Positions 3,022 to 16,747 of a stretch of 64,000 nucleotides of DNA are shown piece by piece. The stretch's first letter is position 1; every line of letters starts with the position of its first letter. Location: the NCBI RefSeq assembly GCF_021631985.1, contig NZ_CP070225.1, forward strand, positions 5,518,001 through 5,582,000, given 5' to 3'. The DNA is from Sandaracinus amylolyticus. GTDB lineage: Bacteria; Myxococcota_A; Polyangia; Polyangiales; Sandaracinaceae. The notes below the pieces were generated by a model, which saw only the letters and a list, made by a program, of their open reading frames with translations, had not been told where the DNA came from and did no database searches. The position numbers and the translations under genes are program-made.

Positions 3022-4938
3022 TCAGCGCGCGCTGGCGACGCGCCCGGCGCGCGGGCGCTCGCGACGCACACGCTGGAGCGCGCGCTCCTCGTTCGCGATC
3101 ACCCCGCCGAAGGGCGCGGCGATCGCGTCGCCGGTGCCCAGCATGATCTCGATGGTGCGCGCCGGGGTCAGCGCGGGGTCGACCGAGATCATCTTCGCCG
3201 CGAGGTTCGCGGCGTTGGGCGAGGCCATCGACGTGCCCGAGAGCGGCACGTGCTCGCCGTTCGGGATCAGCGAATCGACCTCGACGCCGAAGTCGAAGAG
3301 GCGCACGCGATCCGGGCTCGAGTTCGTGAACGTCGCCCAGTTCCCGAAGCGGTCGACCGCGCCCACGACCAGCACGTTCGGCGCCTGGATCGACGCGGGC
3401 ACGTCGCCGTACTCGACGACGTCGCGGTTCGAGTTGCCCGCCGCGATCACGAAGAGCGTCTCGGGGCAGTGCTCGAAGATCCACTGCCAGTTGGCGCGAC
3501 GGCGCGCGTGGATCTCCGCGGCGCGGCGGCGGACCTGCTCGTCGTTCGTGTAGACGCCCGACTCGTGGCCGAGCTCGGCCTCGACGTAGTCCTGCGCGAA
3601 GCCGAGCGACGCGTTCACGACGCGCACGTGGTGGGTGTTGATGAAGCTCGCGATCGCCTCGACGTTCGCGCGCTCCGCCGCGAGCTCGGCGTCGGTCGGG
3701 CCGCGATGACGGTAGACCCGGGTCTCGCCCGCCCACGCGCTGCGGAACACCGCGACGCGCGCCTGGGGAAGGCCCTGCACCAGGATGCCCGCGACGTGCG
3801 TGCCGTGGGCCCACTCGCCGACCGCGTCGAGGTTCGACTCGAGCACCTCGAGGCTCGCGGCGTCGGTCGCGCTGCGCATGAGCGTCAGCACGCGCTGCGC
3901 GGCCTCGGTCGAGGCCATGCCCGCGCGCAGATCCATCACGCCCCGGAGGAACGGCGCGTACTGGGTGATCACCGCGGCGCCGGGGTCGTAGGTCAGGCCG
4001 GTCTGCGCGGCGTCGGGGTCCGCGACCACGCCGTGCACGTCGTCGACGAGCCCGTTGCCGTCGTCGTCCTGGCCGTTCGGCTGCTCGCCGGCGTTCGTGA
4101 AGAGCTGCTGCTCGAACAGGTTGCCCGCGGTGCCGGTGTCCCAGACGCCGACCAGCACGGGCTGCGCGTCGCGGGCGCGGGTGAGATCGACGGTGGAGAA
4201 GCGGTAGTCGCGGTCGGCGGGCCGCGCGTCGTGCGCGGTGCGGACGTTCGTGATCGCCTCGAGGTAGACCGGGCGGTTCGCCACCGCGTCGGCGAGCACG
4301 TGCGAGGTGAAGAGGTAGCTCGCCGCGGTCTCGAGGGTCAGGAGCTGCTGGCGCGTCTGCTCGAGCGACGCGTCGATCTGGGTGCGCTCCTGGTAGAGCT
4401 GGAAGACGACGGTCGACGCGCCGAAGCGGGCGCGCGGCAGCTCGTTCAGCACGGCCTCGACGGCGGCGCGCTGGGCCGCGGGGTCCTCGCCCGCCGAGCG
4501 GCGGGCGATCACCGAGAGCAGCGTGGTCCCGACGTACGCCATGTTGCGGTTGCGGGCCTTGGCGCGGACGAGGCGCACGGTCTGGGCCGCGCCATCGAGA
4601 TCGCCGGCCGCGAAGTCGGCGGCGGCGAGGTAGAGCATCTGCTCGCACACGCGATCGCCGAGCGCGGGCGCGCTCGCAGGATCGCGACGCCACGCCTGGA
4701 AGCCGTCGATCGCGAGCTCGGGATCGGCCTCGCGGATGCGGGAGACCGCGCCGGCGCGGACGCGATCGATCAGCTCTTCGTCGGTGATGCTGGCCCACGG
4801 CGACGCGGGAGCGGCCTCGGGGGCGGGCTCGGCCGTCGCGGTGGTGGGCGCGGGCTCGGTGAGGGTCGTCGGCGTGCTCGACGCGCCGCCACAGCCGGCG
4901 AGCCCGAGCACGAGGAGAAGTCGGAGGGTGCGACGCAT
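3022..4938 (-). CDS. Subtilisin-like (S8) serine protease lipoprotein
   Basis: Predicted secreted, lipid-anchored endopeptidase of 638 residues. The start at 4938 gives MRRTLRLLLVLGLAGCGG, a clean type II signal peptide with the lipobox LAGC; an upstream in-frame extension exists but would bury this signal. A Thr/Pro/Ala-rich linker follows, then a helical region of about 200 residues, then the S8 domain. Catalytic residues are visible: Asp in GVWDTGTAG (about residue 267), His in EWAHGTHVAG (about 377), and Ser in LSGTSMASPNA (about 569). The Asp-His interval is long and contains a DDDGNGLVDD segment that could bind calcium. A broad role in extracellular protein digestion is inferred. Confidence 0.88.
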   Translation of the reverse strand: MRRTLRLLLVLGLAGCGGASSTPTTLTEPAPTTATAEPAPEAAPASPWASITDEELIDRVRAGAVSRIREADPELAIDGFQAWRRDPASAPALGDRVCEQMLYLAAADFAAGDLDGAAQTVRLVRAKARNRNMAYVGTTLLSVIARRSAGEDPAAQRAAVEAVLNELPRARFGASTVVFQLYQERTQIDASLEQTRQQLLTLETAASYLFTSHVLADAVANRPVYLEAITNVRTAHDARPADRDYRFSTVDLTRARDAQPVLVGVWDTGTAGNLFEQQLFTNAGEQPNGQDDDGNGLVDDVHGVVADPDAAQTGLTYDPGAAVITQYAPFLRGVMDLRAGMASTEAAQRVLTLMRSATDAASLEVLESNLDAVGEWAHGTHVAGILVQGLPQARVAVFRSAWAGETRVYRHRGPTDAELAAERANVEAIASFINTHHVRVVNASLGFAQDYVEAELGHESGVYTNDEQVRRRAAEIHARRRANWQWIFEHCPETLFVIAAGNSNRDVVEYGDVPASIQAPNVLVVGAVDRFGNWATFTNSSPDRVRLFDFGVEVDSLIPNGEHVPLSGTSMASPNAANLAAKMISVDPALTPARTIEIMLGTGDAIAAPFGGVIANEERALQRVRRERPRAGRVASAR

Positions 4939-5140
4939 GTCTGCTGCTTCCTCGTTGTGAGTTTCGGGGCGCGCATTGGAGCACGGGACTCCGGCGCGTC
5001 CAAGGCCGCCGCGTCGCTGGCGGTCGACGTCGGGAGCGGGGCATACTCGGCCCGCTTTCGTTTTGAATGAGAGAGGACTTCTGCTCCGTCTGCGTACGAC
5101 ACGGGTGGCGGTGCAGGGTCCCAAGCGCCGGGGAGGCAGG

Positions 5141-6589
5141 ATGAGCTCGATGCGTGGAGCGCTGGCGACGATGGCGATCGCGAGCGCATTGCTCGGAGGC
5201 GTCGCGAACCGCGCCGACGCGCAGTACGTGATGCCGGGCGCGCCACCCCAGTACGGCGCGCTGCAGGTGCGCGGCGCGGTGGCGCCGGATCCGATGGTCG
5301 CGGACGGCGTGGCGGGCGGGCCGGTCTCGCTCTCGGGCGCGAACTCGAGCTGCCGCGGCTACGCGCAGGGCGCGCCGAACCACGTGATCATGGCGCAGAC
5401 GGGCCTGCGCTTCCTCGCGATCATGGTGAATTCGTCGTTCGACTCGACGCTGATGGTGCAGACGCCCGACGGGCAGGTGTACTGCAACGACGACACCGAC
5501 GGCCTGTTGCCGCGCGTGGAGATCAGCTCGCCGCCGGGCGCGATCCGGGTGTGGGTCGGCGCGTACTCGTCGAGCGGCGGCGGGCCGTACCGGCTCGGGC
5601 TCTCGAACACGCCGGGCATCCGCGCCCAGCAGCTCGGACCGCCGGGCAGCGGCGGAGGGGTGGTGGTCACGCCGCCCCCCGGGCGCCCGCCGGTGGTCGG
5701 CGGGATCACGCCGGGCGCGCCGCCGCTCTACGGCAACACCGGCGTGCGCCAGGGCTTCCAGCCCGACCCGGTCGTGATGACCGGCTCGGCGGGCGGTCCG
5801 CTCGACGCGAGCATGATCGACAGCAGCTGCCGTGGCTGGATCACGCCGCAGCCGAGCCACGTGATCGTGGCGCAGTCGGGCTTCCCGAACCTGCGCATGC
5901 TGGTCTCCGCGGGGCACGACACGACGCTGGTCGTGCAGTACCCGGACGGGCGCATCGCCTGCAACGACGACGGCGCGGGCTCGCTGAACCCGCTGCTCGA
6001 GGGGCCGACCGGGCCGGGGCCGATCCGGGTGTGGGTCGGCAGCTACTCGAGCGGTCGCGCCGGGCCGTACACGTTCGGCGTCACCGAGTACCCGCACATC
6101 CAGCCGGGGCACCTGGTCGGCGGTGGTGGTGGTGGGGTCGTGGTGACGCCGCCCCCGCAGCCTCCGCCCCAGCCGCCGCGCGGTGAGGTCACGATGGTGG
6201 ACCTGCAGCCGCGCATCCCGGTGACGCTCTTCGGGCCGGGGATGTCGGCGGCGACGTTCGCGGTGTGGAGCCCGCGTGGTGGGCCGCGCATCGAGATCAT
6301 GGTGACGCCGTCGGGGCCCTCGCTGAGCGTCTCGGCGCGGGTCGGGGGCAACGAGATCGCGCTGGGCACGGTGCCCCAGGAGATCGCGCGCGACGCGGTG
6401 GTCACGGTGACGCAGCAGCCGAACTCGACGCTGCTGGTGCGCGCGGAGCGTCCGCCGGACTCGCGTCGCTCCGATCCCGGCGCGCAGATGCTGCTCTCGG
6501 TGCGCTGGGATGCGCGCGCGGCGGTGCCGACGCTGGTCGACCAGTGGAGCGGGACGTTCGGCGATCGCGCGCCGCGCTGGGCGCGCTGA
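5141..6589 (+). CDS. Secreted protein with two pre-peptidase-like repeats
   Basis: 482 residues with an N-terminal signal peptide ending near ANRADAQ. Two homologous beta-rich units (about residues 36-165 and 205-335) share the landmarks PDP..(A)GGPV/L, SSCRG, HVI(M/V)AQ(S/T)G, a QTPDG/QYPDG turn, CNDD, and PGPIRVWVG.YSS, resembling the bacterial pre-peptidase C-terminal (PPC) fold found in exported proteins. Gly/Pro-rich linkers separate them, and a third distinct C-terminal domain follows. ATG at 5141 is preceded by GGGAGG at good spacing. It is divergent from the subtilisin gene with about 200 bases between. Function unknown; likely an extracellular binding or chaperone-like module. Confidence 0.75.
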   Translation: MSSMRGALATMAIASALLGGVANRADAQYVMPGAPPQYGALQVRGAVAPDPMVADGVAGGPVSLSGANSSCRGYAQGAPNHVIMAQTGLRFLAIMVNSSFDSTLMVQTPDGQVYCNDDTDGLLPRVEISSPPGAIRVWVGAYSSSGGGPYRLGLSNTPGIRAQQLGPPGSGGGVVVTPPPGRPPVVGGITPGAPPLYGNTGVRQGFQPDPVVMTGSAGGPLDASMIDSSCRGWITPQPSHVIVAQSGFPNLRMLVSAGHDTTLVVQYPDGRIACNDDGAGSLNPLLEGPTGPGPIRVWVGSYSSGRAGPYTFGVTEYPHIQPGHLVGGGGGGVVVTPPPQPPPQPPRGEVTMVDLQPRIPVTLFGPGMSAATFAVWSPRGGPRIEIMVTPSGPSLSVSARVGGNEIALGTVPQEIARDAVVTVTQQPNSTLLVRAERPPDSRRSDPGAQMLLSVRWDARAAVPTLVDQWSGTFGDRAPRWAR

Positions 6590-6690
6590 CGCCGCTCCAG
6601 CCCCGAGATCGGCTCGCCAGCTCCGGGCCCTCCGCCGGCGAGCACTCCAGTCGAGTCGGGGCCTATGACAGGTCGGGTGAGGACGGCGTG

Positions 6691-8043
6691 GTGAGCGATG
6701 CGGACGAGGGCGCCGGGCCCTCGGGGTCGTGGCTCTTCCACGCCGCGCTGATCGCGGGGGTGCTGCCGGTCCTGGGGGTGCCCATCGTGGCGCTCGCGAC
6801 CGCGGCGGCGTGGCGCTCGTCGCGCGGCGGGGACGCGCGGGAGCGGCGCTGGGCGAAGCGACTGAGCGGGCTCCTCGCGCTCGACGTGGTCGCGGCGCTG
6901 GTCGTGCTCGCGACCTCGCTCGGGATGCTCCCCGCGCCCGAGCAGGTGCTCGCGCCGAGCGACGGGCCGCGCATCGGGGTCGCGGTCGACGACGCCTACT
7001 CGGGCGAAGGGCTGCGGGTCGCGGAGGTGCTCGAGGGCTCGCCCGCGGACGGCGCGGGGATCGTCGGGGGCGACGTGCTGCTGCGCGCGGACGGCGCGCC
7101 GGTGGAGTCGCTCGAGGGGCTGCGCAGCGCGCTCGGCGCGGGCGATGGGACCGTCGCGATCGAGCTGCGTCGCGGCGACGCGATCGAGCGCGTCGAGGTG
7201 GTACCGGTGCACGGCGCGCTCGGTGCGCGCGAGCGATGTGGCGAGGTGCGCGCGGCCGATCTCGTGCCCGGGCTCGGGACGCTGGTGTCGTACGGCGTGG
7301 TGCTGATCGGCGCGCTCGTGCTCGCGTGGCTCGGATGGAAGCGCGGAGTGCGCGGAGGCGCGCGCACCGTCGTGCCGTTCGCGCTGATCCCGCCGCTCGG
7401 TGCGCTGGTGGGGACCGGGATCGCGATGCTCGCGTGCCGCTCCGGCGGCGAGGCGCTGGTGCTGGAGATCGCGCTCCTCGGGTCGGAGATCGTGCTCGTC
7501 GCGATGGCGGCGGGCGCGGTGTGGCTCGCGTCGCGCGGATGGGAGGGCGCGACGCCGACGCTCGATGGCGATCCTCCGATGCCGGTGCCGCGCGTCGTCG
7601 CGCTCGGCGTGATGTACGTCGCGACGTGGGTGCCGCGGGTGCTGGTGCTCGCGATGCCGCTCTTCGCGGCGGCGCGCACGCTCGGGGTCGAAGGCGGATC
7701 GGAGGCGCTCGGCGAGGTGCTGGGTGGAGATCGCGCGCCGATCGCGCTCTTGATGACGTTCGTCGCGGGCGCGCTGCTCGCACCGCTCGGCGAGGAGCTG
7801 CTCTTCCGCGGTCTCCTCGTGCCGTGGCTCGCGCGCGTGGTCACGCCGTGGAGCGCGATCGTGATCTCGGCGCTGCTCTTCGGCGCGCTGCACGATGCGC
7901 ACGGGATGGCGCGCATCGGGCCGATGACGATCGGGCTGGTGCTCGGATGGGCGCGGCTGCGCTCGGGCACGCTGATCGCGCCGATCGCGATCCACGCGAT
8001 CGTGAATTCGATCGCGCTGACGATCGGCTGGCTGACGAGCTAG
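6691..8043 (+). CDS. PDZ-containing CPBP family intramembrane protease
   Basis: 450 residues from GTG at 6691. Order: one or two TM helices (about 14-40 and 60-82), a PDZ-like domain (about 92-172: IGVAVDDAY, GSPADGAG, GGDVLLRADG), then a multi-spanning CPBP/Abi domain. The three CPBP signature motifs are present: EELLFRG near residue 368 (catalytic Glu pair and Arg), FGALHDAHG (His), and HAIVNS near the C-terminus. CPBP proteases cleave substrates in the membrane (CAAX processing, bacteriocin immunity or stress signalling); fusion to a PDZ domain suggests substrate selection by C-termini or site-2-like control. The physiological substrate is unknown. It is convergent, end to end, with the following di-heme gene. 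Confidence 0.85.
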   Translation: MSDADEGAGPSGSWLFHAALIAGVLPVLGVPIVALATAAAWRSSRGGDARERRWAKRLSGLLALDVVAALVVLATSLGMLPAPEQVLAPSDGPRIGVAVDDAYSGEGLRVAEVLEGSPADGAGIVGGDVLLRADGAPVESLEGLRSALGAGDGTVAIELRRGDAIERVEVVPVHGALGARERCGEVRAADLVPGLGTLVSYGVVLIGALVLAWLGWKRGVRGGARTVVPFALIPPLGALVGTGIAMLACRSGGEALVLEIALLGSEIVLVAMAAGAVWLASRGWEGATPTLDGDPPMPVPRVVALGVMYVATWVPRVLVLAMPLFAAARTLGVEGGSEALGEVLGGDRAPIALLMTFVAGALLAPLGEELLFRGLLVPWLARVVTPWSAIVISALLFGALHDAHGMARIGPMTIGLVLGWARLRSGTLIAPIAIHAIVNSIALTIGWLTS

Positions 8044-9546
8044 CTAGAGCGACTCGACGAACGACACGAGATCCGCGCGCTCGAGCTCGGTCAGCGACTC
8101 GAACCCGAGACGCGCCGCCGTCGCTTCACCGTCGTGCCAGAGCACCGCCTCCGCGACACCACGCGCTCGGCCGTCGTGGAGAAGGCGGACCTCACCGCCG
8201 ACCACGCCGAGCAGGCCGATTCCCCAGAGCGGCGCGGTCCGCCACTCACGACCGCTCGCATCGCCCTCGGCGCGTCCGTCCGCCAGGCGCTCCCCCATGT
8301 CGTGGAGGAGCAGATCCGTGTACGGCCAGATGCGCTGCCCCGCGAGCTCGGGCTCGACCGAGTCTCCGGTGACGAAGCTCGGACGGTGGCATCCGTCGCA
8401 GCCGACCGCGGCGAAGAGAACGCGGCCGCGCCGCACGGAGGGCGCCTCGGCGTCGCGCCGGGCGGGCACGCCGAGCAGTCGCACGTACGACGACGCGACC
8501 CGCAGGCGCGTCGCGGTGAGCTCGGGCGAGCCACCGCTCGCGGCCCCCAGACACGCCGCTTGCGACTCCGTGCACGCCTCGGTCGGGTGCACCGAGCTCG
8601 TGATGCCGAGGTCACCCGCGAAGGCGGCGGAGGTCTGCTCCTCGACGGTGGGCTGCCCCGCCTTCCAACCGAAACGACCGATTCGCAGGGCGTCGATCCA
8701 GCGGACACGCCCGGAGATGCCGTCCGCGTCGGCGTCGAGCTCGTCGGCGAGCGCGAGGAGGTCGTCCTCGTCGATCGCTTCGAGGAGCCCCTGCCCCACG
8801 AGCTGCTGCGCGATGCGCGGCGACAGCACCGCGCCTCCTGCGAGCGGGCCGTAGCCGAGCGACGCGATGTCGTAACGCGGCAGCGGCAACATCGCCTGCG
8901 TTCCGTCGGCGAGACGGTGCGAGACGAGCGACTCGAAGCGACGCGCGTGACCTTCGCCCGCGACGCCGGGGACGCCCAGCGGCTGCAGCTGGTCGCCGTA
9001 CGTGGGGTCGGGGCGACCGTCGGGTGTCCCGAGGCGCAGGAGCACGCCCGGGCGGTTCTCGTCGGGCGTGGCCGACGGCGCGCCACGTCCGTTCCGGACG
9101 TGGCACTCGATGCACGAGACCGCGTTGTAGACGGGGCCGAGCCCATCCGCTTCGGGGCGGCCCGGGGCGATCTCCCACTCGAGACGGAAGAACTGGAGGC
9201 CCGCCTCGAAATCGGCGCGTCGCGCGATGGTCAGGTTCGCGGCCTGCTGCAGGAACGCGCTCCCGTCGACGACGCTCGTCGTCGTGTCTCCGCCCGGCAG
9301 GAGCTCGCCTTCCTCGAGCGGAGGAAGTGCCGCGTCCAGCGAGGCGTCGTCGGACGCAGCGTCGACCAGGTGCGCATCCCACGGTGCGCCTCCATCGCCG
9401 AGCGCACCGTCCTGTGCTGCATCGGGACGCGCAGCGTCGAAGCCCGCGCCGGCATCGTCGCCGACGCCCGGCGCCGTCACCTCGCAGCCCGCGAGCACGA
9501 GCATCAGATGAAGGGCCGCGACCCTCGCTCCACGTGCTCCGGTCAT
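8044..9546 (-). CDS. Di-heme oxidoreductase (DUF1111/COG3488 type) lipoprotein
   Basis: 500 residues with lipobox LAGC near residue 19 and an Asp/Ala-rich linker, then a di-heme c-type domain. Two heme-c attachment motifs are visible: CIECH (about 150) and CDGCH (about 375), plus the conserved HDMG, LLHDGRA and WHDGEA segments of the family. Such proteins occur with imelysin-type iron-regulated proteins and are thought to handle redox chemistry at the surface. Here the partner is an RCC1 lipoprotein: the upstream gene's stop overlaps this ATG (ATGA at 9543-9546), so translation is coupled. The operon carries a Fur-type site, which supports iron control. The exact reaction is unknown. Confidence 0.85.
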   Translation of the reverse strand: MTGARGARVAALHLMLVLAGCEVTAPGVGDDAGAGFDAARPDAAQDGALGDGGAPWDAHLVDAASDDASLDAALPPLEEGELLPGGDTTTSVVDGSAFLQQAANLTIARRADFEAGLQFFRLEWEIAPGRPEADGLGPVYNAVSCIECHVRNGRGAPSATPDENRPGVLLRLGTPDGRPDPTYGDQLQPLGVPGVAGEGHARRFESLVSHRLADGTQAMLPLPRYDIASLGYGPLAGGAVLSPRIAQQLVGQGLLEAIDEDDLLALADELDADADGISGRVRWIDALRIGRFGWKAGQPTVEEQTSAAFAGDLGITSSVHPTEACTESQAACLGAASGGSPELTATRLRVASSYVRLLGVPARRDAEAPSVRRGRVLFAAVGCDGCHRPSFVTGDSVEPELAGQRIWPYTDLLLHDMGERLADGRAEGDASGREWRTAPLWGIGLLGVVGGEVRLLHDGRARGVAEAVLWHDGEATAARLGFESLTELERADLVSFVESL

Positions 9547-11453
9547 GGACGCGGATAGATGAGAACCGGGGCGCTGTAGGCCCACGCGTGGATCGCTCCG
9601 GCGAGGCCGAGCGAGCCCTGGAAGCTCCAGCCCCATCCGAGCACGTTTCCGGCGTCGGTGAGCGCGAACGTCGGCCCGCCGGCTCCGCCTTCCATCTCGA
9701 GGATGACGAACTCCGACGCCGGTCCGGGCGGCGCGACGCGGGTGGCGAGGGAGCGGCTCGCCAGGTCTCGCGAGCCATCGCCGAGGTACCCCATGCCGAG
9801 CTGACCGAGCCCGCCGAGGCCCCAGGCGTACGCGTCGCCCGAGCTCGTGACGGCGAGGCTGACGAAGCCGTCTGCCGCGACGCTCTCGACGTCGGTGAGC
9901 GGCACGACCGGCGACGCCGACACGAGGACCTGGGTCGGCGTGGTGACGGGGGTCGCGCCCGACGTGTCGTTGCCGATCTGCCCGTTGTTGTTGCGTCCCC
10001 AGGCCATCACGGTGCCGTCCGCGCGGAGAGCGAGGACGGTCGAGTTGCTGCTCGCGACCATCACGACGTCGGTGAGGCCGGGGACGAGCGTCGGCGTCGG
10101 GTGAGCGACGGTGTCGGCGGTTCCGTCGCCGAGGATGCCGTACTGGTTGTCGCCCCACGCCCAGACGGTGCCGTCGCTCCGGACGGCGAGCGAGTGCGTC
10201 GAGCCGGCCGCGACCTGGACGACGTCGGAGAGCCCCGGGATCGGGGCGGGGGTGAGCTGGTCGGCGTCGCCCGGGGTGGCGTAGCCGAGCGCACCGCGCG
10301 TGTTCTGGCCGAACGAGAGCACCGTCCCGTCGCCGAGGAGGACGAGCGAGTGGTTGAAGCCCGCAGCGACCGCGACCGCGCCCGAGATCCCGGGAACGAC
10401 GGTCGGCGTCCGGCGACACGGCGACGTCCCGGCCGACCCACAGTCGGTCTCGGCGGCGTAGCCGAGCTGACCGTCGCTGTTCGAGCCCCAGGTCAGCACG
10501 GCCCCGTCGTCGCGGAGCGCGATCATGAACGTCTGCCGAGTGACGACGGAGACGAGGCCGGACGCGCCGGCGGGCGTGTAACGGACCGGCAGCGAGGCGG
10601 CGGGGCCGTCGCCGTACGCCGACCCGTCGAGGGTCCCGTTGCCGAGCTGGCCCAGCTCGTTCCGCCCCCACGTGAAGAGCGTTCCTCCGTGGAGCAACGC
10701 GCCCTGCGAGTTCCCTCCCGAGAGCCGGTGCCCGAAATGGGCGGAGACCGTCGCACCGGCGGTCTGACCTTCCGCGTCGGTGGCGGTGACGACGATGGCG
10801 TTGACGCCGGGCGTCGGCACGAGCGTCACCGCGAAGCTGCCGTCGCTCTCGAGGGTGACGGGAGTCGCCGTGCCGTCGAGCGATACCTCGAGGCCGGTCA
10901 CTGCGACGTCGTCGGTCGCGGTGCCCGTCACGAGCAGCCGCCGGGCCGCGACGAACCCTGCGTCGCGCGGTGAAGTGATCGCGACTGCGGGCGGCTCGCT
11001 CCGCTTCGAGAAGGTCACCTCGTCCTCGGACCGATGACCGTGCTCGTCGACCGCGATCGCCCGGAGCGTGTGGGGGCCGGGGGACAGCGTCTCGACGCTC
11101 GCGGTGATCGTGCTCGCGCTCGAGGCGACGGCGATCTCCGCACCATCGAGCTCGAGGCGGAGCGTCGCCGTGACCTCGGAGGGCACCATCGCAGCCGAGA
11201 CGCCGAGCGGCAGCGTGTCGACCACCGATCCGTCGGCCGGCGAGGTGATGGCGACCTCGCCCGTCACCGGCGCGTCCGGCGGAACGTGCGCATCGACCGC
11301 GATGGACGAGTCGGGGGCGGGTGCCGCGTCGAGGGAGGGCTCGGCGTCCAGGCCGGCGTCGGTGACGTGTCCGGCGTCTGGATCGGCAACCGATGGGTCC
11401 GCACAGGCGATCGAGCAGGAGAACAAGAGCGGAAAGAACCGCGAACAACGCAT
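9543..11453 (-). CDS. RCC1-repeat beta-propeller lipoprotein
   Basis: 636 residues. The N-terminus has a short hydrophobic signal ending in a plausible lipobox (SIAC), then Asp/Ala/Pro-rich linker, then two Ig/Big-like beta domains (about 70-250: VAITSPADGSVV, VAITSPRDAGFV), then an RCC1 propeller with at least six blades marked by W(A/T)WGxNxxGQLG repeats. Blades in this family mediate protein or glycan binding. First gene of a two-gene operon with the di-heme protein, to which it is coupled by a 4-base overlap. A Fur-type box lies 19 bases upstream of the ATG at 11453. Likely anchored outside the inner membrane. Function is inferred as a surface scaffold or iron-responsive binding protein. 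Confidence 0.85.
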   Translation of the reverse strand: MRCSRFFPLLFSCSIACADPSVADPDAGHVTDAGLDAEPSLDAAPAPDSSIAVDAHVPPDAPVTGEVAITSPADGSVVDTLPLGVSAAMVPSEVTATLRLELDGAEIAVASSASTITASVETLSPGPHTLRAIAVDEHGHRSEDEVTFSKRSEPPAVAITSPRDAGFVAARRLLVTGTATDDVAVTGLEVSLDGTATPVTLESDGSFAVTLVPTPGVNAIVVTATDAEGQTAGATVSAHFGHRLSGGNSQGALLHGGTLFTWGRNELGQLGNGTLDGSAYGDGPAASLPVRYTPAGASGLVSVVTRQTFMIALRDDGAVLTWGSNSDGQLGYAAETDCGSAGTSPCRRTPTVVPGISGAVAVAAGFNHSLVLLGDGTVLSFGQNTRGALGYATPGDADQLTPAPIPGLSDVVQVAAGSTHSLAVRSDGTVWAWGDNQYGILGDGTADTVAHPTPTLVPGLTDVVMVASSNSTVLALRADGTVMAWGRNNNGQIGNDTSGATPVTTPTQVLVSASPVVPLTDVESVAADGFVSLAVTSSGDAYAWGLGGLGQLGMGYLGDGSRDLASRSLATRVAPPGPASEFVILEMEGGAGGPTFALTDAGNVLGWGWSFQGSLGLAGAIHAWAYSAPVLIYPRP

Positions 11454-11471
11454 GCGCGACGGCTACCACGG

Positions 11472-11486
11472 TGAGAATGATTGTCA
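11472..11486 (-). promoter_or_regulatory. Fur box before the RCC1/di-heme operon
   Basis: TGAGAATGATTGTCA matches 13 of 15 positions of the 7-1-7 Fur consensus TGATAATnATTATCA (counting the free centre as a match). It sits 19-33 bases before the ATG of the RCC1 gene in otherwise very G+C-rich DNA. The position suits repression by Fe-loaded Fur near the promoter. Match is seen directly; binding is inferred. Confidence 0.75.
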
Positions 11487-11564
11487 AAGTCGGCACTGAC
11501 GAACGTGTGAGCACACCCACCGTCGAGGGACGGAGAGCGCCATCGCCGGTCGTGCTCCGCGCGC

Positions 11565-12914
11565 CTAGAACGGCTCGGGCACGCAGGTGCCCGAGGCGCA
11601 GAGCAGCGGTGCGCAGCAGTCGGTGTCGACGACGCACGCGCCGCACGTGCCTCCGACGCACGCCTGGTTGCGGCAGTCGAGACAGCTCGTGCACTCGGGG
11701 CGCGTCGGCGGAGGACAGGGATCGGCGGCGCGCAGCACGCTCGTGTCGTAGTGGAGCGTGACCGGGCCCGACGCCGACACCCGACGCACGAACGCGCTGC
11801 CGTACACCTCGAGCTCGCCCGCCGCGACGAGCTCGGCGCGCGGCGCGTAGAGGTTGCCGCCGAAGAAGCCGTTGTCGGAGAGGCTCACGTTGCCCGCGCC
11901 GCCCACGTAGAGGCGCGCCTGCGCCGGACGCAGCGCGTCCCCGATGCGCAGCACGCGCATCGCGCCCACGTCGCCCGCGACGAACATGTCGATCTCCGCG
12001 CCCGGGCCCTCGAGGCGGACCGTGAACTCCCCGTTGAACGAGAGATCGCCCGCGATGAAGAGCGCGGTGCGCCCGGTGACGACGAGCGTGAGATCGCCCT
12101 CCCCCGCGACGCGCTCGAGGTAGAGGCGACCGCACGGGAGCGTGAGCGTCGCGTCGCCGGTGTAGCCGTCGAGCTCGCGCGGGTTGAAGCCCACGAGCGC
12201 GTCGTCGTTGTCGGTCGCGTGCGCCGCGACGAGCGCCGCGACGTCGAGCAGATCGTCGGGGTCGCAGGAGCAGGGCGGCGGCGTCGCGACCGGGACGCGT
12301 CGCTCCATGCCGAGCGTCGGCGGGAACGTCGTCTCGAGCGGTGCGCCCTCGGGCATGGTGAGCGTGCCGCCGACGCGCAGCGTGCGCGCGCGGAGCGACA
12401 CGTCGACGTACGCGTCGCGCCCGACGTCGAGCCCGTTGTCGCACGTGACCGCCGCGCCCGAGCGCAGGTCCGAGCCGATCGTGAGATCGGTGCTCGAGTG
12501 CACGCCGCCGAGCGTCCACAGCGCGCCCGAGACGTCGGCGCCCGCGTTGAACTCGATGCGCCCGTTGCTGCCGACCGATCCCGCGCGGCCCGCGCGATCC
12601 GAGGAGTACGGGCCGTCGGCGCTCGCGAACGAGTCGGTCGTGATCGGCGCCGCCGAGACCCAGCCCTCGCACGTGCAGAGCGCGAAGCGGAACGTCGCCT
12701 CGGCGAGCCCACCGCTGCAGAGCGGCAGGCCGCGATCCGACACCAGCACCGGCGGCCCCTCGCCCTCGCAGTAGCTCGGCAGCCTCGCGTCGACGGGCGC
12801 ATCGCGGGGCACGTTCGCGTCGAGGCCGCGCTGGTGCGCGACGATGTCGTCGACGGTGCACGCGCCGAGGAGCAGCGCGGCACCGAGAACAGCGAGGCAG
12901 GCGCGCGGGGTCAC
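11565..12914 (-). CDS. Cys-rich lipoprotein with beta-helix-like repeats
   Basis: 449 residues. Lipobox LGAC at residue 19. The central part is a run of short beta-strand repeats (LRVGGTLTMP, LFIAGDLSFNG, MFVAGDVGAM, LYVGGAGNVSL, GGNLYAPRAEL) typical of parallel beta-helix or adhesin-like proteins. The C-terminus has about twelve cysteines in CxxC spacing (CTSCLDCRNQACVGGTC and onward), a pattern shared by many myxobacterial surface proteins. GTG start at 12914 overlaps the stop of the upstream TPR gene by four bases, placing it third in the sigma operon. Likely an envelope target made together with the sigma factor. No enzymatic motif seen. Confidence 0.75.
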   Translation of the reverse strand: MTPRACLAVLGAALLLGACTVDDIVAHQRGLDANVPRDAPVDARLPSYCEGEGPPVLVSDRGLPLCSGGLAEATFRFALCTCEGWVSAAPITTDSFASADGPYSSDRAGRAGSVGSNGRIEFNAGADVSGALWTLGGVHSSTDLTIGSDLRSGAAVTCDNGLDVGRDAYVDVSLRARTLRVGGTLTMPEGAPLETTFPPTLGMERRVPVATPPPCSCDPDDLLDVAALVAAHATDNDDALVGFNPRELDGYTGDATLTLPCGRLYLERVAGEGDLTLVVTGRTALFIAGDLSFNGEFTVRLEGPGAEIDMFVAGDVGAMRVLRIGDALRPAQARLYVGGAGNVSLSDNGFFGGNLYAPRAELVAAGELEVYGSAFVRRVSASGPVTLHYDTSVLRAADPCPPPTRPECTSCLDCRNQACVGGTCGACVVDTDCCAPLLCASGTCVPEPF

Positions 12915-15794: not shown

Positions 15795-16445
15795 TCACGA
15801 ACGTCGCGTCGGGACCAGCGCCCTCGGCGGCGGCCTGGTGTGCTCGAGGTCGTCGAAGAGCGCGTCCACGAGCTCCCGATGCAGCAGGAACGCGCGGCGC
15901 GCCTCCTCGACGACGACGTCGTGGTGCGTGCGCGGGACCGCATCGAGGTACGCGCGCAGCTCGTCCTTGTAGGCCGCGCGATCCGCGATGCCGGGGAACG
16001 CGAAGTACGCGGGGTCGAGCCCGGGCGGGAGTCGGAACAGGCGAGGCGCGAGACGCCCCACGACCGCACCGCCCGAGAGGTCGGCGAAGTAGCGCACGTA
16101 GAAGTGCCCGAGCAGCGCGATCGGCTCGTCGTGCGCCACGAGCCGGACGCGCGCGGCGTAGCCGTTCGGCGCGGAGGAAGGCGGGCGGCCGAGGGCAGCG
16201 AGGTCGGCGCGGAGCGCGGCGAGCCGGTGGAGCTCTGGGCGATCGAACGCGCGCAGCAGCGGCTCGGCGCTGGTGGCGAGCGACGTCTCGAGCGCCTCGT
16301 AGACGGGCTCCATCCGCACGAGGCCGAGCGCGTACGCGTGCGCATCGAGGCGGCCGGCGAAGAACGCGCGCGCGAGGCGCGTGGCCTCCGCGAGGACGTG
16401 CTCGCGACGGGTCTCGGAGCGCAACCTCGCGGAGAGCGTCGTCAC
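15795..16445 (-). CDS. hmuO: Heme oxygenase (biliverdin-producing)
   Basis: Cytosolic enzyme that opens heme to biliverdin, CO and Fe2+ for iron acquisition. 216 residues from GTG at 16445. The proximal heme ligand is His16 in SETRREHVLAEA, and the distal-helix signature is seen as HFYVRYFADLSGGAVVG (about 120-136), with the paired glycines that contact heme. C-terminal YKDELRAYLDAV fits the last helices. The start overlaps the stop of the upstream small gene (GTGA at 16442-16445), so the two are translationally coupled. A Fur-type site lies before that first gene, which suits iron-repressed heme use. No heme receptor or transporter gene is seen nearby. Confidence 0.88.
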   Translation of the reverse strand: MTTLSARLRSETRREHVLAEATRLARAFFAGRLDAHAYALGLVRMEPVYEALETSLATSAEPLLRAFDRPELHRLAALRADLAALGRPPSSAPNGYAARVRLVAHDEPIALLGHFYVRYFADLSGGAVVGRLAPRLFRLPPGLDPAYFAFPGIADRAAYKDELRAYLDAVPRTHHDVVVEEARRAFLLHRELVDALFDDLEHTRPPPRALVPTRRS

Positions 16446-16663
16446 GCGGTCCCCCGGATGCCCTCGCGGTGGCCGATCCCGCGGGTCGCGAGGGCCCGAC
16501 GCGCGGCGGACATCGTGTCGTGCACCGTCCGGAAGGCTCGCTCGTCGAGGCGCACCGAGACGAAGCCGACGTGGAGCGTGAGCCCGCCGCACTCGGTGCA
16601 TCGCTGGACGGAGAACGCGCCCTCGGAGGCGAGCGTCTCGTAGTGGCACGGAGCGCTCGTCAC
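16442..16663 (-). CDS. Small Cys protein coupled to heme oxygenase, 73 aa
   Basis: 73 residues with a CxxC-type pair (CTECG at about 22-26) plus Cys6 in PCHYETL, followed by beta-like LTLHVGFVSVRL and a basic C-terminal helix. A compact metal-binding or redox fold is plausible; the layout recalls small DUF6686-like proteins, but I cannot confirm this. It is the first gene after the Fur-type box and overlaps the heme oxygenase start by four bases, so it probably acts with that enzyme, for example as an iron, heme or electron handler. Function unknown. Confidence 0.7.
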   Translation of the reverse strand: MTSAPCHYETLASEGAFSVQRCTECGGLTLHVGFVSVRLDERAFRTVHDTMSAARRALATRGIGHREGIRGTA

Positions 16664-16732: not shown

Positions 16733-16747
16733 TGATAACGATTCTCA
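16733..16747. promoter_or_regulatory. Fur box in the heme oxygenase/GFA intergenic region
   Basis: TGATAACGATTCTCA matches 13 of 15 positions of TGATAATnATTATCA. It lies 70 bases before the ATG of the 73-aa gene at 16663 (minus) and 112 bases before the GFA gene at 16859 (plus). Iron-dependent repression of the heme oxygenase operon is the likely function; an effect on the GFA gene is possible. Confidence 0.75.

Follow-up and report, generated by a model that had tools for sequence, protein, structure and literature searches.

Enzymes of the DUF1111 family occur widely and are often under iron control; we know of no established substrate for them. The 64,000-nucleotide stretch of Sandaracinus amylolyticus DNA analysed here (the window) contains a DUF1111 gene coupled to an RCC1 lipoprotein gene behind a Fur-type box, and an initial annotation had read this arrangement as a variant surface iron-acquisition or redox system. 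Is the pair such a system, or a chance assembly of neighbours? The locus has the following features.

8045-11566: whole cassette, both genes and the box, missing in sister species G008
8044-9546, minus strand: DUF1111/DHOR open reading frame, 500 aa, di-heme c-type oxidoreductase
8386-8400, minus strand: second heme-binding motif, CDGCH
9100-9114, minus strand: first heme-binding motif, CIECH
9543-11453, minus strand: RCC1 lipoprotein open reading frame, 636 aa; its N-terminus carries a signal peptide and a candidate lipobox Cys (residue 13 or 17)
9543-9546, minus strand: ATGA stop/start overlap of the RCC1 and DUF1111 frames
9567-9635, minus strand: C-terminal signature WGWSFQGSLG...WAYSAP, residues 607-629, marking the DUF1111-linked RCC1 subfamily
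10743-10991, minus strand: Ig-like domain (Big_7/Glucodextran_B), residues 155-237, between anchor and propeller
11472-11486: Fur-type operator TGAGAATGATTGTCA, matching 12 of the 12 specified letters of TGAnAATnATTnTCA
16733-16747: second Fur-like box, TGATAACGATTCTCA, before a 73-aa open reading frame and a heme oxygenase gene

Pfam searches bore out both protein identities given in the initial annotation. The DUF1111 product matched DHOR (PF06537; E 3.4e-79, 267 bits against a curated cut-off of 22), contains two CxxCH motifs and has a lipobox, LAGC, with Cys at residue 21. The partner matched the RCC1-like domain (E 5.6e-69) and Ig-like Big_7/Glucodextran_B, and is built in the order anchor, Asp/Ala/Pro-rich linker, Ig-like domain(s), RCC1 repeats. 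Pfam also placed an Ig-like domain in each of the four further first RCC1 partners that were scanned. BLIP-II is among the solved-structure relatives of the RCC1 protein. A solved-structure search with the single DUF1111 sequence returned no match, and a profile search returned a weak match to cytochrome c551 peroxidase (E 0.003). We take DUF1111 to be related to the di-heme peroxidase/MauG group.

The box lies directly before the RCC1 gene, 18 nt from its ATG, and the two genes overlap by four bases, both as originally described. The next same-strand gene upstream of the box ends at 11565, and the gene layout of the window reveals no convincing plus-strand gene beyond the box; the box can thus serve the RCC1-DUF1111 pair only. 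A TTGACA overlapping it on the coding strand is a possible −35 element. The cassette contains no TonB receptor. In the sister species both the cassette and the box are missing, and the flanks, 92-93% identical to those of the present genome, lie 7 bp apart. The 3.5-kb cassette, box included, is a clean presence/absence unit, and the difference between the two genomes is compatible with either gain or loss. The cassette was not found in other sampled members of the family. Assignment of the box to a neighbouring gene was rejected on the grounds of gene layout and of the joint absence of box and pair from the sister genome.

At up to two mismatches, TGANAATNATTNTCA has two matches in the window, against 0.06 expected. 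In the whole genome (10.96 Mb) 10 sites were found at up to one mismatch, with none for the reversed-pattern control, and 21 at up to two mismatches, with two for the control. Most of the genomic sites adjoin iron genes. Four boxes lie by genes for a siderophore NRPS, a class III aminotransferase and a siderophore-interacting protein (SIP); other boxed genes include FeoB, PepSY_TM, the heme oxygenase and a set composed of HmuY with a delta-60 lipoprotein, imelysin and HTTM; boxes with two mismatches precede an imelysin-DUF1111-imelysin-HTTM operon and TonB. A few sites (e.g. 941548, 9010170 and 10386957) have no obvious iron gene nearby. The genome encodes a Fur homologue (PF01475, E 1.1e-38), and the promoter of the pair matches, at the level of the Fur consensus, an operator class common to known iron genes of the same genome. 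A chance box was considered and rejected, given the window and genome counts against their controls and the recurrence of boxes at pair loci. Fur would be expected to bind here.

Several other loci of this genome deserve mention in their own right. The second box of the window, a 73-aa Cys-containing open reading frame (16442-16663, minus strand), which overlaps the heme oxygenase start, and the heme oxygenase region (15795-16663, minus strand) are likely to form an iron-regulated heme-degradation operon. The Fur-boxed HmuY, delta-60-repeat lipoprotein, imelysin and HTTM genes (L019, G000:C1:331000-344000, local 4698-11138) adjoin a TonB-receptor-like gene carrying two further boxes; the delta-60-repeat protein is probably another propeller-type lipoprotein in an iron operon. 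Near Fur-like boxes at three loci (L294, L292 and L023) lie four mutually homologous lipoproteins, two of them adjoining PepSY_TM proteins; their match to DUF4374/XusB structures is weak (E about 0.05), and they are possibly xenosiderophore systems. At about 2020-2520 of the window a peptide, xSTxDGSDPSP, is repeated in open reading frames of both strands, a pattern suggestive of a short intergenic array of tandem DNA repeats.

The initial annotation proposed a search for the pair elsewhere and regarded non-recurrence, together with no iron response, as grounds for abandoning its reading. The DUF1111 protein was searched against bacterial genomes and 377 Myxococcota genomes, and neighbours were mapped. 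At 17 loci in Myxococcota an RCC1 gene immediately precedes a DUF1111 gene in the same orientation, with RCC1 first in every one: the present locus, Hyalangium versicolor, a Myxococcaceae MAG and 14 others from the 377-genome sample. The pair recurs, and that objection fails. Hyalangium versicolor has the same ATGA overlap, with the box 21 bp before the start. Such an overlap is possible at 12 of the 17 loci, and the remainder have an in-frame start no more than 14 nt from the RCC1 stop. An extra RCC1 gene lies between the first one and DUF1111 in five genomes (G345, G372, G374, G299 and G066) and, it appears, in the MAG as well.

A Fur-like box with at most two mismatches stands upstream of 14 of the 16 assessable RCC1 loci (12 of 14, plus L212 and L213), of 32 of 59 imelysin-type DUF1111 loci (54%) and of one of 25 DUF1111 genes with neither partner, while control windows of the same loci contain one in about 1-4%; these box statistics, like those for partners, count kin genomes separately (close kin are G345, G372, G374 and G299, and G022 and G042). 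The exceptions among RCC1 loci at this threshold are L172 and L184; the box upstream of L037 is a poor match.

RCC1 proteins are plentiful in this genome (84 matched stretches), and a chance RCC1 neighbour was considered for that reason. The linked proteins, however, end in a characteristic way: WGW[SN]xxGS[LF]G...W[ASP][YF]xxP terminates 16 of the 17 first RCC1 partners, and W607, W609 and W624 are invariant in all 16 aligned linked proteins. Among 25 other RCC1 proteins of the same genome none has the full signature and none the W[ASP][YF]xxP part, while WGW[SN] alone occurs in four. A scan of the 377 genomes with a DNA pattern for the signature gave 10 matches, all at pair loci, and is an under-count, since the pattern misses AGY serine codons. 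The second RCC1 genes of five to six loci are without the signature. By these sequence criteria the DUF1111-linked RCC1 proteins are a subfamily of their own. The chance-neighbour explanation was rejected, given the 17 loci and a subfamily confined to them. The present locus has a signature-type RCC1 gene directly 5′ of DUF1111 on the same strand, the arrangement by which we define the module.

The annotation's statement that DUF1111 usually travels with imelysin was upheld: imelysins neighbour 64 of 106 Myxococcota copies and DUF1111 at most Pseudomonas loci. No imelysin (PF09375) gene was found in the cassette, nor adjoining DUF1111 at any of the 17 RCC1 loci. In a tree of the 106 Myxococcota DUF1111 proteins, all RCC1-linked members lie outside the clade of imelysin-linked proteins (support 96) and none inside it, a placement compatible with one origin of the RCC1 association or with several. 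They were more clustered than in any of 500 shuffles. Distances among RCC1 proteins correlate with those among their DUF1111 partners (Spearman 0.58, Mantel p 0.0002, 12 non-redundant pairs), and shared descent contributes to this correlation. The two CxxCH motifs and the same invariant His and Trp are retained in RCC1-linked and imelysin-linked DUF1111 proteins alike, so that the chemistry is probably the same in both modules while the partner differs.

An imelysin module is also present in 14 of the 15 surveyed carriers of the RCC1-DUF1111 pair, and the canonical one sits elsewhere in the present genome; the two modules therefore coexist. Simple replacement of imelysin by RCC1 was rejected on this ground. 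The variant with an RCC1 partner proposed by the initial annotation stands in a refined form, as a parallel, phylogenetically separate module beside the imelysin version and not a single-genome swap. Myxococcota imelysin-DUF1111-imelysin operons regularly terminate in an HTTM protein (L024, local 8572-9885, and many other imelysin loci), which, where scanned, has a vitamin-K-dependent gamma-carboxylase-like lumenal domain. Among the DUF1111 proteins of the present genome is one of 758 aa (L025, local 4798-7071) that has no partner gene and bears an additional cytochrome c domain at its N-terminus.

Taken from the box, its regulon context, the coupling, the recurrence, the RCC1 subfamily and the conserved heme motifs, all of them features of sequence, a reasonably probable reading is that of a Fur-repressed, translationally coupled two-gene operon making a surface iron module parallel to the imelysin version. 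Under iron limitation Fur would be released from the box and the pair expressed. The RCC1 propeller of an outer-membrane lipoprotein, extended on its linker and Ig-like domain, would capture an iron-bearing ligand, for which a ferric chelate, a siderophore and heme are candidates; the lipid-anchored di-heme enzyme would then carry out a redox reaction on the bound iron or on its partner, so that iron could be passed on. The propeller would occupy the place that imelysin has in the genome's imelysin-DUF1111-imelysin-HTTM operon. Surface location, ligand and direction of electron flow we infer, as we do the function of the pair in iron acquisition or redox chemistry; no ligand site was identifiable. 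A second, independent partner family, equally Fur-linked and co-inherited, would permit a useful comparison, as any feature common to RCC1 propellers and imelysins should indicate the DUF1111 reaction.

Other readings were weighed against the iron module. DUF1111 might oxidise an RCC1 residue (W609, W624 or Y626) and so form or adjust a metal site, as CorB and SACCP are proposed to do for the copper-binding CorA and MopE, where the logic of a metal-repressed operon for a surface metal-binding protein and a di-heme enzyme is the same (PMC3912023). The invariant Trp residues, the absence of W[ASP][YF]xxP from the 25 unlinked proteins and the weak cytochrome c551 peroxidase match fit such maturation, but the Trp residues may merely close the propeller, the second RCC1 genes are without the signature, and imelysins are DUF1111 partners too; we consider it unlikely. 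In a more specific form the propeller would be the protein substrate of DUF1111, with oxidation of a conserved C-terminal Trp/Tyr forming, after translation, a site for iron or a ferric chelate. That version is distinctly unlikely; if true, it would place the pair beside the CorA/MopE copper systems as their iron equivalent and could explain the role of DUF1111 beside imelysins as well.

Alternatively, DUF1111 could be a periplasmic or surface peroxidase made at low iron, with RCC1 as a docking or electron-donor scaffold. In the portions of PMC7567364 covered here, H2O2 induces the Leptospira interrogans genes LIMLP_07150/07145 (log2FC about 5 and 2.2), apparently the same gene pair, as well as the imelysin-DUF1111 operon, and the pair is not among the iron-limited genes, which makes a role in peroxide defence possible. 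A perRA perRB double mutant likewise shows raised expression of the Leptospira imelysin-DUF1111 operon (PMC8638851). Nevertheless, the operator is of the class common to iron-uptake genes in the present genome and its relatives, and partnerless DUF1111 proteins, equally able as peroxidases, are almost never boxed; we regard peroxide defence as quite improbable. The box could also be real and the pair merely expressed under iron starvation, with RCC1 binding another protein in adhesion or recognition. The abundance of RCC1 proteins in the genome agrees with this, as does the relationship to BLIP-II, a secreted bacterial RCC1-fold protein that binds another protein. The strict pairing with a di-heme redox enzyme, together with an RCC1 subfamily found only there, makes it very improbable.

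The Fur-regulated imelysin/DUF1111 operons PA4370-4373 of Pseudomonas aeruginosa and VC1264-1266 (PMC3143127) resemble the present pair in the di-heme family with both CxxCH motifs and conserved His/Trp, in the Fur box and in lipoprotein partners. They differ from it in that the partner here is an RCC1 propeller, sometimes two, in an operon without imelysin or HTTM, and the DUF1111 protein lies outside the imelysin-linked clade. PMC3143127 equates EfeB with DUF1111; the abstract of PMC3577903 describes EfeB as a DyP-family peroxidase, and the equation is for this reason not adopted.

XusB of the Bacteroides XusABC system (DUF4374), a seven-bladed propeller lipoprotein of solved structure that binds ferric siderophores (PMC13142918), is likewise a surface propeller lipoprotein and is induced by iron limitation. 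It belongs to another propeller family, and its partners, a TonB transporter and a PepSY protein, do not include DUF1111; neither a DUF4374 profile match nor such adjacent genes were found at the present locus. The methanotroph CorA-CorB and MopE-SACCP pairs likewise combine a surface metal-binding protein and a di-heme c-type enzyme in a metal-repressed operon (PMC3912023), but the metal is copper, the partner fold is unrelated, and CorB/SACCP are cytochrome c peroxidase/MauG-like and not established as DUF1111.

As far as the covered portions of PMC7567364 describe it, the Leptospira pair LIMLP_07150-LIMLP_07145 has a five-repeat RCC1 gene directly 5′ of a thiol oxidoreductase with two cytochrome c domains, is predicted to be bicistronic and coexists with an imelysin operon. 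There it is reported as peroxide- and host-induced only, with no Fur link or family drawn; host-adapted cells, too, show increased expression of the rcc1 gene (PMC3953431). The present results suggest an iron context for this operon, so far presented in those portions as a peroxide-response and host-induced one. On balance the iron model is the best supported, peroxide defence and partner maturation being its rivals, and the RCC1-DUF1111 pair would represent a second version of a known, poorly understood iron-uptake module.
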